Source: Dethiosulfovibrio peptidovorans DSM 11002 (GTDB lineage: Bacteria > Synergistota > Synergistia > Synergistales > Dethiosulfovibrionaceae). Taken from it: a stretch of 64,000 bases of DNA. Where the stretch lies: NCBI RefSeq assembly GCF_000172975.1, contig NZ_ABTR02000001.1, forward strand, positions 1,774,501-1,838,500, in the 5' to 3' direction. The notes beneath the pieces are model-generated. The model worked only from the letters and a program-made list of their open reading frames with translations. It was not told the origin of the DNA and made no database searches. A program made the translations under genes and the position numbers. The number at the start of each line of letters is the position of its first letter. Within the stretch, counting starts at the first letter, position 1. Positions 15,945 through 23,609 of this stretch are shown one piece after another.

Positions 15945-16105
15945 TGGAATATAGCAGGGAAGTTCGTTCAGGAAGCCGGTGAAAATCCGGCACAGCCCCG
16001 CTACGGTTAGGATGACGACGGAGACACACCGCCTCTGACTTCGGTCGGAAAGGCGTCTCCTAGGTTGAATCCAAGTCCGGATACTGAACGGAACTACCGT
16101 CGATT
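15945..16105 (+). promoter_or_regulatory. cobalamin riboswitch upstream of btuFCD
   Basis: The element contains the conserved core AGCAGGGAA, then a GCCGGTGAAAATCCGGC hairpin followed by ACAGCCCCGC (15975-16002), and the late AATCCAAGTCCGGA segment near 16067-16080. This is the usual layout of an adenosylcobalamin riboswitch. It is followed by an intrinsic terminator at 16151-16172. Binding of B12 would be expected to shut off the uptake operon. A second copy, on the other strand, controls the cbi/hem operon at about 38.0 kb. Confidence 0.9.
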
Positions 16106-19968: not shown

Positions 19969-19997
19969 TTGACGTGTGCTCCTGCGGCGTATATAAT
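19969..19997 (+). promoter_or_regulatory. consensus promoter upstream of the SAM riboswitch
   Basis: TTGACG (19969-19974), a 17-bp spacer, and TATAAT (19992-19997). This is one of the best sigma-70 promoters in the window. Transcription would start near 20004, just before the riboswitch. Confidence 0.85.
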
Positions 19998-20019: not shown

Positions 20020-20128
20020 GATCGAACCATCCAGAGCGGCGGAGGGACTGGCCCTACGAAGCCGCGGCAACCTTCGCTATAGCGAGACGGTGCCAAATCC
20101 AGCAGGAATTCCTGGCAGATGGTCGAGG
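20020..20128 (+). promoter_or_regulatory. SAM-I riboswitch (S-box)
   Basis: The conserved core is present in order: CCAGAGCGGCGGAGGGACTG, then GCCC, GCCGCGGCAACC, a variable hairpin, GGTGCCAAATCC and the closing CAGATGGTCG that pairs with CGAACCATC at the 5' end. The strand and the distance to metQ fit control of methionine uptake. A 14-bp terminator at 20145-20187 follows as expression platform. Confidence 0.95.
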
Positions 20129-20144
20129 CTTTTATCGCTTTTTA

Positions 20145-20187
20145 TGGATGCCTCTTCCTCTAAGCCGGAAGAGGTATCCATTTTTTT
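20145..20187 (+). terminator. SAM riboswitch terminator
   Basis: 14-bp stem with one wobble (20145-20158 with 20167-20180), then seven T at 20181-20187. It would end transcription when SAM is bound. Confidence 0.88.
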
Positions 20188-20205
20188 AGAGAGGAGAACC
20201 CGCCT

Positions 20206-20289
20206 ATGAGACTCAGCGATTCCAACATGATGATGTGCGATATGATGTGCTGTCTCTGCGGGGCTCCTGAGGGAGAATACGGCGGCTAA
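20206..20289 (+). CDS. 27-residue Met/Cys-rich leader peptide
   Basis: A short frame with a good ribosome site (AGAGAGGAGAA) starts at ATG 20206. Of its 27 residues six are Met and four are Cys, concentrated in NMMMCDMMCCLCGAP. It begins MRLSDS and ends GEYGG. The stop codon lies inside the next terminator stem (20283-20308). Sulfur amino acid codons placed before a terminator, in a methionine uptake operon, suggest a translated leader that senses Met- or Cys-tRNA charging. A metal-binding mini-protein is the alternative. Coding is inferred from composition and ribosome site only. Confidence 0.6.
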   Translation: MRLSDSNMMMCDMMCCLCGAPEGEYGG

Positions 20290-20308
20290 TCGATCGTAGC
20301 CGTTTTTT
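20283..20308 (+). terminator. terminator overlapping the leader-peptide stop codon
   Basis: Stem CGGCTA/TAGCCG (20283-20288 with 20297-20302), loop ATCGATCG, then six T at 20303-20308. The 5' arm contains the last codons and the start of the stop of the 27-codon frame, so a ribosome terminating there would block the hairpin. Confidence 0.7.
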
Positions 20309-20311
20309 CTT

Positions 20312-20346
20312 ACCGGGATCTCCGTATGAGAGATCCCGGTTTTTTT
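20312..20346 (+). terminator. third terminator before metQ
   Basis: Perfect 11-bp stem (20312-20322 with 20330-20340) followed by six T at 20341-20346. It lies about 80 bp before metQ. With the two upstream it makes three intrinsic terminators in about 200 bp. Confidence 0.85.
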
Positions 20347-20424
20347 ATTTTTGAAGGGAGGGGTAGAGAGTTTCATCGTTTTTTGATTCGGAAAGACCAA
20401 GACAAATCCACAGGAGGTTCTGAG

Positions 20425-21222
20425 ATGAAAAAATATATCGCTTATCTGTTCGTTTTTCTGTTCTCTCTGTTCGTGGCGTCCGGTTCCAACGCCGAGGATC
20501 TCTCGGTCCTGAAGGTCGGCGCTACCGCCGGACCTCACGCCGAGATACTGGAGTTTCTGAAGGATCGTTTGAAGGATCGTGGTATCGATCTCCAGGTCTA
20601 TAGCTTTAACGATTATATAACCCCCAATGCTGCCCTGGACCAGGGAGACCTGGATGCCAACTCCTATCAGCACGGGCTTTTCATGGATACCCAGAACCAA
20701 GACAGAGGGTATAGTCTGGTATCCGTTGCAAAGACGGTGGTCTGTCCTATGGGATTCTACTCCAAAAAGATAGACGACGTGGATGATCTGAGGAAAGGGG
20801 CCAAGGTCTCGGTTCCCAACGATCCGGCCAACGTAGGGAGAGCTTTGGCTTTGCTGGAGGAAAAGGGTTTTATAAAGCTCGCCGACGGAGTGGGCTACAG
20901 GGCTTCCGTGCTGGACGTGGTGGAAAATCCTAAGGGGATTAAATTCGTAGAGATAGAGGCCCCTCAGCTTCCCAGGGTCCTGGACGACGTGGATATGGGA
21001 GCTGTCAACGTCAATTACGCAGTGGAGGCGGGATTATCGCCCCTGGAGGATGCCATTCTTCTCGAGGATCCCGAGACCTCTCCTTTCGCCAATATCATAG
21101 CTGCCAGGGAGGATAACAGGGACGATCGGAGGATCGAACTTTTGATAGAGGTCTATCACAGCGATGAGACCAGAAAGTTCATTCTCGATCGATTTAAGGG
21201 TTCCTTCGTGCCGGCCTGGTAG
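20425..21222 (+). CDS. metQ: D-methionine ABC transporter substrate-binding protein
   Basis: 265-residue NlpA/MetQ-family receptor that delivers methionine to MetNI at the inner membrane. It has a Sec signal (KKYIAYLFVFLFSLFVASG) with no lipobox Cys, so it is probably soluble in the periplasm. Family blocks are LKVGATAGPHAEILEF, FNDYITPNAALDQGDLDANS, the substrate stretch SVPNDPANVGRALALLE, and NVNYAVEAGL. ATG 20425 follows AGGAGG; the open frame back to 20326 lies within the leader terminator. The SAM riboswitch and methionine-type ATPase downstream support the assignment. Confidence 0.93.
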   Translation: MKKYIAYLFVFLFSLFVASGSNAEDLSVLKVGATAGPHAEILEFLKDRLKDRGIDLQVYSFNDYITPNAALDQGDLDANSYQHGLFMDTQNQDRGYSLVSVAKTVVCPMGFYSKKIDDVDDLRKGAKVSVPNDPANVGRALALLEEKGFIKLADGVGYRASVLDVVENPKGIKFVEIEAPQLPRVLDDVDMGAVNVNYAVEAGLSPLEDAILLEDPETSPFANIIAAREDNRDDRRIELLIEVYHSDETRKFILDRFKGSFVPAW

Positions 21223-21233
21223 AGGCGTGAGAG

Positions 21234-22295
21234 ATGACCATACTTCTGGAAAAAGTCGGCAAGGTCTTCGAAGCTGACGGATCGTCTCTGAAGGCTCTGG
21301 ACGGGGTGGATCTTCACGTTCCTAGGGGCTCCATTTTCGGAATAATAGGCCAGAGCGGAGCGGGAAAGAGTACCCTGGTTCGCTGCATAAATCTGCTGGA
21401 GCGCCCTACGTCAGGCAGGGTGACGGTGGGAGGCGTGGAGTTGACCTCTCTGGGGGAAAGCGATCTTCGGGAGGCGAGAAAGAAGATAGGCATGATCTTT
21501 CAGTCCTTCAACCTCCTGTCGAATCGAACTATATTCGGCAACGTGGCTCTGCCTTTGGAGTTGGACGGATGGAGTAAGGGCGATATAGAGGTCAGAGTGG
21601 AGGAGCTGCTTGATCTGGTCGGACTGGCGGACAAGAGAGATCAATATCCCTCTCAGCTGTCGGGAGGGCAGAAACAGAGGGTCGGTATCGCCAGGGCCCT
21701 GGCCAACCGCCCCGATGTGCTCTTGTCTGACGAGGCTACATCTGCCCTGGATCCCATGATGACCAAGTCGGTGCTCGCCTTGCTCAGGGAGATCAACGAA
21801 AAGCTCGGTCTAACCATCGTCCTCATCACCCACGAGATGAACGTGGTGAAGGAGGTCTGCTCCCACGTTGCGGTCATAGAGGGAGGACGGATCGTGGAGA
21901 GGGGAACGGTTCTCGATGTTTTTACCTCTCCGAAGAAAGGTGCCACCAAGGAGATGTTACGAGAGGTCGTGGGGGTGGAGCTTCCGGAGAGTTTCGCCGG
22001 ATTGGACTTCCTGGAGGACGATCCCGCAGGGGGAGAACCGGTCGTACAGCTTCAGTTCTTCGGCTCATCCGCGGCGGAACCGGTCATCTCCGGAATGCTC
22101 CGTCGTTTCGACGTGGACGTGAATATCTTGGTCGCCAGGATAGACCATATACAGTCGGTTCCCTACGGAACTCTGGTGCTTCATCTATCGGGGGAGGAAC
22201 GGGAGAGAGACTCCGCTCTGGACTATCTTAACGCCCTGGATCTCAAAGTGGAGGTGATCGGCCATGTGGGCTCAGCTGTCGCGAGTGCTGTTTAA
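21234..22295 (+). CDS. metN: methionine ABC transporter ATP-binding protein
   Basis: 353 residues. The first 240 form the ATPase: Walker A GQSGAGKST, signature LSGGQKQR, Walker B VLLSDEATSALDP, and ITHEM. The C-terminal 100 residues form the NIL regulatory domain that in E. coli MetN binds methionine and inhibits transport. DEATSALDP, with Ala in place of Pro, is typical of MetN. It lies 11 bp after metQ and overlaps metI by 32 bp. Confidence 0.95.
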   Translation: MTILLEKVGKVFEADGSSLKALDGVDLHVPRGSIFGIIGQSGAGKSTLVRCINLLERPTSGRVTVGGVELTSLGESDLREARKKIGMIFQSFNLLSNRTIFGNVALPLELDGWSKGDIEVRVEELLDLVGLADKRDQYPSQLSGGQKQRVGIARALANRPDVLLSDEATSALDPMMTKSVLALLREINEKLGLTIVLITHEMNVVKEVCSHVAVIEGGRIVERGTVLDVFTSPKKGATKEMLREVVGVELPESFAGLDFLEDDPAGGEPVVQLQFFGSSAAEPVISGMLRRFDVDVNILVARIDHIQSVPYGTLVLHLSGEERERDSALDYLNALDLKVEVIGHVGSAVASAV

Positions 22296-22917
22296 CTCTT
22301 TTCTTGAGACTCTCTATATGGTGGGAATGTCCTCGACCATTTCCTTTATCTGCGGAATACCGTTAGGGGTGTTCCTCCACGTCACCGCCAAGGGTGAGAT
22401 ACTGGAGCGACCGAAGGTCAACGGGGTTCTTTCGGCTGTGGTGAACGCAGCCAGGTCCACTCCGTTCATCATATTGATGGTACTTCTCATACCGGTTACC
22501 AGGATGATAGTTGGTACATCCATAGGCATAAACGCCGCCGTAGTCCCCCTGGCGGTGGCGGCTATCCCCTTCGTGGGGCGGATAGTGGAGGGGGCGTTGA
22601 AAGAGGTCGACAGAGGAGTGGTGGAGGCTGCCCAGTCGATGGGGGCCACTCCCCGTCAGATAATAGGCAAAGTGCTACTGCCAGAGGCTCTGCCGGCCAT
22701 TATATCGGGACTTACCCTGGCGGTTATAAACCTGATCGGATATTCGGCCATGGCTGGGGCGGTAGGAGGGGGAGGTCTGGGAGATCTGGCGATACGCTAC
22801 GGATATCAGAGGTTTCGGATGGATATAATGTTCGCCACGGTGGTCATACTGATAGCCATGGTCCAGTTATGTCAGGCCCTGGGAGATCGTATGGCCGGAA
22901 AGGCCAGAAAGTCTTGA
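22264..22917 (+). CDS. metI: methionine ABC transporter permease
   Basis: 217 residues with five hydrophobic helices, as in MetI. The EAA loop reads EAAQSMGATPRQIIGKVLLP at about residues 120-139, with NAARSTPFIILMVLLIPVTR before it and GYSAMAGAVGGGGLGDLA after it. It ends the metQNI operon. No clear terminator follows before the next gene. Confidence 0.95.
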   Translation: MWAQLSRVLFNSFLETLYMVGMSSTISFICGIPLGVFLHVTAKGEILERPKVNGVLSAVVNAARSTPFIILMVLLIPVTRMIVGTSIGINAAVVPLAVAAIPFVGRIVEGALKEVDRGVVEAAQSMGATPRQIIGKVLLPEALPAIISGLTLAVINLIGYSAMAGAVGGGGLGDLAIRYGYQRFRMDIMFATVVILIAMVQLCQALGDRMAGKARKS

Positions 22918-23367: not shown

Positions 23368-23609
23368 ATCTCTAAAAACGCTATCCCTCGGAGAGGTCGT
23401 TTCGGCTCCGCCCTGTCTCGCCCGAACGTATTCCCGACCTGCCTGTTTCGCACGACCGCCTCGGAGGGCACGTCCTGTGCCCCCTCGGCTTGGGGCGACG
23501 TCCTGTCGCCCCATTCGTACTACACGACGACAGGTCGGAAATACGGGCTCGAACGGGCTTCGCCGAAACGACCTCTCCGAGGAAACTCGGACGCGAGTTT
23601 TTAGAGGTG
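23368..23609. repeat. long imperfect palindrome with twin hairpins (MITE-like)
   Basis: The arms CATCTCTAAAAAC (23368) and GTTTTTAGAGGTG (23597-23609) are near-perfect inverted repeats. Inward, CTCGGAGAGGTCGTTTCGGC pairs perfectly with GCCGAAACGACCTCTCCGAG, and CGTATTCCCGACCTG matches CAGGTCGGAAATACG with one change. At the centre sit two hairpins with the same GTCCT loop: GGGCAC/GTGCCC and GGGGCGAC/GTCGCCCC. There is no reading frame of substance. The form suits a non-autonomous mobile element or a dispersed structured repeat. Only one copy was seen in the window. Confidence 0.7.

Follow-up and report, generated by a model that had tools for sequence, protein, structure and literature searches.

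The subject of this analysis is a leader region upstream of a methionine uptake operon in Dethiosulfovibrio peptidovorans DSM 11002, and the window referred to throughout is the 64,000-nucleotide stretch of its genome that was analysed. The features of the locus are collected in Table 1. Downstream of a near-consensus promoter, the leader includes a SAM-I (S-box) aptamer, a first terminator, a 27-codon frame rich in methionine and cysteine codons, a stop-codon hairpin and a last terminator, followed by metQ, metN and metI. A preliminary description had listed the promoter, the S-box, terminators 1 and 3, the frame with its good ribosome site and metQ after the leader, and all of these are indeed present. 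It missed the pairing of 20257-20271 with 20313-20326, the antiterminator of the interpretation offered here.

Table 1. Elements of the metQNI leader and operon, numbered from the first nucleotide of the window
Feature	Position	Strand	Basis
Sigma-70-type promoter	19969..19997	+	TTGACG-N17-TATAAT; 11 of 12 consensus matches
SAM-I (S-box) aptamer, first sensor	20024..20125	+	RF00162, 90.5 bits, E 2.9e-20
Terminator 1, SAM-I expression platform	20144..20187	+	15-bp stem 20144-20181, then T7; -25.9 kcal/mol
Segment 1, Shine-Dalgarno region of the leader frame	20192..20203	+	can pair with segment 2 (20258-20268) in the fold predicted with the ribosome at the stop; partner-swap test, 57 leaders
Leader peptide frame, MRLSDSNMMMCDMMCCLCGAPEGEYGG and stop	20206..20289	+	27 codons; open frame; family conserved across the phylum
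Sensor codons MMMCDMMCCLC, 5 Met and 4 Cys	20227..20259	+	sequence; Met/Cys run conserved
Segment 2 (A), antiterminator 5' strand	20257..20271	+	13 predicted bp with 20313-20326, ribosome on Met codons
Stop-codon hairpin B:B' (terminator 2 of the preliminary description)	20281..20304	+	-10.0 kcal/mol; enclosed in the antiterminator; pairing partner-specific across leaders
Segment 3 (C), terminator 5' arm and antiterminator 3' strand	20312..20323	+	A:C pairing tests
Segment 4 (D), 3' arm and U-run of terminator 3	20328..20346	+	C:D covariation
metQ, methionine ABC transporter substrate-binding protein	20425..21222	+	TIGR00363 above cut-off
metN, ATP-binding protein	21234..22295	+	TIGR02314 best match, 439 bits, under its 499.7 cut-off
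metI, permease	22264..22917	+	NF008049 above cut-off

The aptamer belongs to the SAM-I class by its match to the covariance model (gathering score 44.4 bits), by the terminator that follows it and by the methionine-pathway genes downstream, and it is predicted to bind SAM. An Rfam search of 20190-20350 returned no element at gathering threshold. Upstream of the frame lies AGAGAGGAGA, and the encoded 27-residue peptide contains 6 Met and 4 Cys. Terminator 3, which would serve as the terminator of the attenuator described below, consists of a stem at 20312-20340 and a T-run (-19.8 kcal/mol). The metQ frame is open upstream (20326-20424) as far as an ATG in the loop of this terminator; that ATG is probably fortuitous because metQ is preceded by a ribosome site of its own, ahead of the start at 20425. 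Elsewhere in the window there is a Cobalamin riboswitch at 15969-16086 (+), with an apparent metal/cobalamin-type ABC uptake operon downstream, and a TwoAYGGAY RNA motif at 23413-23565 (-) that barely exceeds its gathering score (43.9 versus 43).

A scan for terminators found 4 sites versus 1.9 +/- 1.6 in shuffled sequences, which is by itself weak evidence for the arrangement; it is the comparison with other genomes, rather than the scan, that indicates an arrangement beyond chance. In two very close genomes the leader is 97-98% identical, and these are little informative. Two genomes from other families of the order (G018 and G035) have a SAM-I aptamer, then a frame such as MTQRFTKRFTNGMMCTMMMCDDGGSPPGRTGGC, then metQ, and a third (G017, likewise from another family) has the frame MTTRQATMMMCAMMMCGNGGSPPGRTGGC before metX. 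A scan with a DNA pattern limited to Met and Cys codons covered 188 genomes from the phylum, which genome structure and gene content suggest is probably Synergistota; 56 of them gave a match, and a reversed-pattern control gave 3 matches. Many of the matches are unrelated ordinary genes, and nearly all of those in short frames before met genes include a GS[SP]PGxxG tail. A leader profile built from 11 peptides then found further homologues; since the profile search favours the tail, conservation of the tail is partly ascertained.

All told, the pattern and profile searches identified about 55 homologous frames in about 44 of the 188 genomes, distributed over 6 families, with the consensus ...MMMCxMMMC..GS[SP]PGxxG directly followed by the stop codon. 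The conserved Met/Cys-rich frame that the preliminary interpretation would predict in related met leaders therefore exists, before metQ, metN, metX, metY and metA; cystathionine-synthase-like genes, a few transporters and others complete the set of downstream genes. A Shine-Dalgarno sequence precedes the start in 52 of 55 leaders, as compared with 6.1% of all ATGs, and the distance from stop codon to terminator stem in the 55 leaders is 15-29 nt. A chance origin of the frame is ruled out by this phylum-wide conservation.

The window-type metQ with its double leader is found in only 3 of the 7 genomes of the genus; transfer of the unit together with its operon, or its loss elsewhere in the genus, may account for this. 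When MetQ was used to look for relatives in a collection of named genomes, the loci obtained were all distant (in alphaproteobacteria, actinobacteria and one Bacillota genome), and their upstream regions, scanned quickly, revealed no comparable leader; blastn with the leader against plasmids likewise gave no match. Two other kinds of short frame came to light in the phylum. One genome has, at G067:C1:517018 and 529969 (L080 and L081), a Met-rich leader ending in GGMMMCMGMMMRMCTMDAVR and a stop, with no GSxPG tail, in one case before metN; this is possibly an independent methionine attenuator. Met/Cys-rich short frames with ribosome sites also precede a related putative membrane protein at G084:C21 (L060) and G097:C1 (L065).

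Riboswitch and frame occur both together and apart. A SAM-I aptamer lies upstream of the attenuator at 10 loci in 5 genera (G000, which is the window's own genome, G001, G005, G018, G035, G053, G057, G071 with two loci, and G185), and a terminator separates aptamer and frame in all 7 stacked loci that were searched. The attenuator occurs alone in G017, G026, G034 and G052, genomes in which no SAM-I element was detected, and in other genera metK and metY have SAM-I only. Within the window's genome, a second metQ (G000:C1:1236416-1237373; L003, L258) and metK (G000:C1:1201751; L002) have SAM-I and no attenuator frame, and these two loci are natural controls for the stacked leader.

The attenuator is built from the same parts in each leader: the Shine-Dalgarno region (segment 1) can pair with the GSxPG codons (segment 2), segment 2 with the 5' arm of the terminator (segment 3), and segment 3 with the 3' arm (segment 4). 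In the window, segment 2 overlaps G-A-P codons that stand in the place of the GSxPG motif. The terminator helix C:D is paired in 93.4% of cells across 55 aligned leaders, with covariation of 0.535 versus 0.261 in shuffled alignments. In the largest group of leaders (alignment A3), a 9-bp A:C helix is paired in 95.6% of cells, as compared with 42-64% when the strands are slid, and three pairs are changed on both sides where 0.6 would be expected. Complementary examples include GGATCTTCG with CGAAGGTCC (G154), GGATCCTCG with CGAGGATCC (G126) and GGGTCCTC with GAGGACCC (G124). Over the 55-row alignment A:C is weaker (76.7% paired), as a one-column offset between the families blurs the signal.

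This problem does not arise in an alignment-free test in which the partners of 57 leaders were exchanged 3000 times, within families only. Own A:C partners gave a duplex energy of -15.40 versus -14.07 for swapped partners, and none of the 3000 swaps was as good. The same was true of the stop-codon hairpin B:B' (0 of 3000), and for the Shine-Dalgarno:A helix 36 of 3000 swaps matched the natural pairing. Wrong-partner controls had no such effect (A:D, 2929 of 3000; B:C, 2077 of 3000), and a pairing of segment 2 with the 3' arm D is accordingly unsupported. The partner-swap tests thus support 1:2, 2:3 and the stop-codon hairpin, even within families. Sequence and comparison together document the aptamer, the frame, the terminators, the alternative helices and their conservation.

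How the position of a ribosome might select among these helices was approached by folding each leader as transcribed up to, but not including, the terminator's 3' arm. The footprint of a ribosome was placed either on the middle Met codon or at the stop. With the ribosome on the middle Met codon, the antiterminator A:C has a median of 8.2 bp and reaches at least 4 bp in 49 of 55 leaders; when segment 2 alone is shuffled, the median falls to 0.28 bp. With the ribosome at the stop, the median antiterminator is 0.13 bp, and 19 of 55 leaders still retain at least 4 bp of it; its place is taken by the Shine-Dalgarno:A helix, with a median of 6.5 bp. The window leader behaves in the same way, its antiterminator going from 9.2 bp in the stalled state to 0.9 bp with the ribosome at the stop. 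In the stalled fold, 13 bp join 20257-20271 to 20313-20326 with the stop-codon hairpin inside; with the ribosome at the stop, 20192-20203 is paired with 20258-20268. The G017 and G052 metQ leaders are among the few that lack the antiterminator in the stalled fold. In these models, the dependence on ribosome position follows the logic of the classical trp-type attenuator.

Attenuators in general rely on folding during transcription. At equilibrium the full-length window leader forms the terminator in every ribosome state, and the model therefore relies on the kinetics of co-transcriptional folding. With no ribosome present, the antiterminator is again the favoured structure of the truncated window leader (9.0 bp), which leaves the default state ambiguous. 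The locus has the parts of a ribosome-mediated attenuator, namely a frame with ribosome site, start and stop, sensor codons that match the pathway, a terminator after the stop and, as a prediction, an antiterminator that excludes the terminator and depends on the ribosome.

Taken together, the comparative and folding data make it very probable that two switches stand in series before metQNI, a SAM-I riboswitch and then a ribosome-mediated attenuator that reads methionine, or methionine and cysteine. This two-layer switch had been suggested in the preliminary description, and the conserved frames, the partner-specific antiterminator and the 10 loci with SAM-I upstream now lend it support. We infer the stalling, the direction of the response and the series logic as follows. 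When SAM is abundant, the riboswitch would end transcription at terminator 1. RNA polymerase that passes this point would enter the attenuator, where the 27-codon frame would be translated. If charged methionyl-tRNA (and probably also cysteinyl-tRNA) were scarce, the ribosome would stall on the MMMCDMMCC codons, segment 2 would pair with the 5' arm of terminator 3, no terminator would form and metQNI would be transcribed. If methionine were plentiful, a ribosome at the stop would open the stop-codon hairpin and destabilise the 2:3 helix, so that segment 2 would return to the Shine-Dalgarno region and terminator 3 would form. Full expression of the operon would thus require low levels of both SAM and charged Met-tRNA.

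The stop-codon hairpin is what the preliminary description had called terminator 2. The hairpin does exist, but it is weak and is better read as a conserved stop-codon hairpin; as the terminator of the attenuator it is rejected, being weak and, in relatives, usually a stop-codon hairpin without a U-run. In the window's genus B:B' is followed by T6, a U-run that is only occasional in relatives, and there some termination at the hairpin could occur, weakly, exactly while the ribosome is stalled, which would oppose the model.

Averaged over 55 leaders, a sensor segment of 14 codons contains 4.3 Met and 1.8 Cys codons. At least three Met codons are found in 50 of the 55 and at least two Cys codons in 36. 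Methionine is the main sensing candidate, since its codons are more numerous and more constant, and cysteine may be a second input or a modulator. The earlier suggestion of Met or Cys sensing is thereby narrowed, with Met as the constant part and Cys as secondary. The attenuator could instead sense mainly cysteine, or sulfur amino acids generally, and this reading draws on the at least one Cys codon in 52 of 55 sensors, on two leaders that keep the tail and have fewer Met codons, one of them with one Cys codon and the other with three, upstream of a sulfonate/taurine-type ABC permease (G119:C6, L189, and G119:C180, L207), and on one G121 leader before a cystine/amino-acid-type binding protein. 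We consider it unlikely: Met codons outnumber Cys codons and vary less, one Cys is missing in G052 and in MMMCMMMR variants, and most targets are genes of methionine synthesis or uptake.

The alternative of the preliminary description, in which the product of the frame is a free-standing metal-binding mini-protein made from between terminators, has in its favour the high Met and Cys content and the good ribosome-binding site. It is now most improbable, as the sensor ranges across homologues from 1 to 7 Met and from 0 to 4 Cys, the frame is placed immediately ahead of a terminator and in most cases ahead of methionine genes, frame codons pair partner-specifically with terminator arms, branched-chain-type leaders (see below) share the tail and not the Met/Cys run, and the peptide has no Pfam or NCBIfam match. 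Another reading would have an ordinary SAM-I leader in which the frame and terminators 2 and 3 play no sensing role. That is the usual arrangement, and the one seen at metK and the second metQ of the same genome; yet the frame-plus-terminator unit stands by itself before met genes in genomes such as the four named above, and the antiterminator pairing is both conserved and partner-specific, leaving this reading very improbable.

Branched-chain-type leaders, in which the GSxPG-type tail is kept together with Ile/Leu/Val runs, precede ilvN/ilvB (G043) and ilvC (G018), and this is the expected pattern if sensor codons are swapped while the switching part stays. The window's own genome has one such leader, MVGRSFNISIVVMIVVLIIGCGSPPGAVVVM and a stop, with tail and terminator (L259; G000:C1:1231095-1231145, minus strand); a 56-residue frame follows it, with no recognised ilv gene directly downstream.

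Within GSxPG, mean entropy at codon positions 1, 2 and 3 is 0.36, 0.25 and 1.15 bits, and the low variation at the first two positions supports translation of the tail. The tail peptide itself may matter, as judged from these positions, where the excess is partly ascertained by the profile search. A more tentative and rather improbable extension is that GS[SP]PGxxG, besides providing the antiterminator strand, acts as a nascent-peptide element, delaying the ribosome close to the stop and thereby ensuring termination under plentiful amino acid, the phylum-wide module being joined to Met, Met/Cys or branched-chain sensors. The codon-position pattern favours this idea, because compensated changes would be acceptable at all three positions if RNA pairing were the sole constraint.

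If the model is right, the attenuator would define a modular regulon that is widespread in a phylum whose gene regulation has been little studied. Stacking it under SAM-I would separate two pools, methionine for protein synthesis and SAM for methylation, which SAM-I alone could not tell apart. The occurrence of SAM-I only, attenuator only or both before related genes such as metY and metQ is a natural experiment in the replacement and combination of RNA sensors.

Riboswitches, T-boxes and protein repressors are the textbook regulators of methionine operons, and classical leader-peptide attenuators occur at the trp, his, ilv, leu, thr and phe operons of Proteobacteria. A full-text literature search, with most subscription journals outside its reach, returned no description of methionine attenuators in the window's phylum, and an earlier report is possible. 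Leader-peptide attenuators are also described at trp and ilv in Actinobacteria (PMC1262725) and at his in some Bacilli (PMC2965389, PMC9413887). Like the classical systems, the window leader has a short translated frame, codons for the product amino acid, 1:2, 2:3 and 3:4 helices and an intrinsic terminator; it differs in its methionine (with cysteine) specificity, its phylum, the conserved GS[SP]PG codons that constitute segment 2 and the placement of such leaders, in some cases, after a SAM-I riboswitch. In Actinobacteria, no conserved RNA regulatory structures were reported for met operons, and the cysteine leader peptides of Mycobacterium have no terminators (PMC1262725).

Translation-based attenuation with methionine codons is nearly undescribed, the one proposed case being metL of Streptomyces lividans, a Met-dependent leader peptide MSTTSDRTPATEATTTPGARCMCRRMCAF before metNIQ (PMC8079986). 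This leader and the tandem sensors of mgtA and mgtCBR appear to be the closest precedents. According to the accessible text of that report, metL shares with the window leader mixed Met and Cys codons, whereas it has a leaderless start and no typical intrinsic terminator (termination is called unclear), comes from one genome with no conserved antiterminator shown, and is described with no mention of a riboswitch in front. In Salmonella, mgtCBR combines a Pro-codon frame with ATP sensing and mgtA a Pro-codon frame with a Mg2+-responding element (PMC3641672), so that two signals likewise act on one leader; the signals, mechanism and genes are different, and the window would place two intrinsic terminators in series with inputs from one pathway (SAM and Met-tRNA). 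The Bacillus clausii metE leader, with tandem SAM and B12 riboswitches (discussed in PMC3641672), resembles the window in being a methionine leader with a SAM riboswitch in series with an independent termination switch, and differs in that its second sensor is a B12 riboswitch rather than a translated frame. The window would thus add to these systems a methionine (Met/Cys) ribosome-mediated attenuator, conserved across a phylum and here in series with SAM-I.
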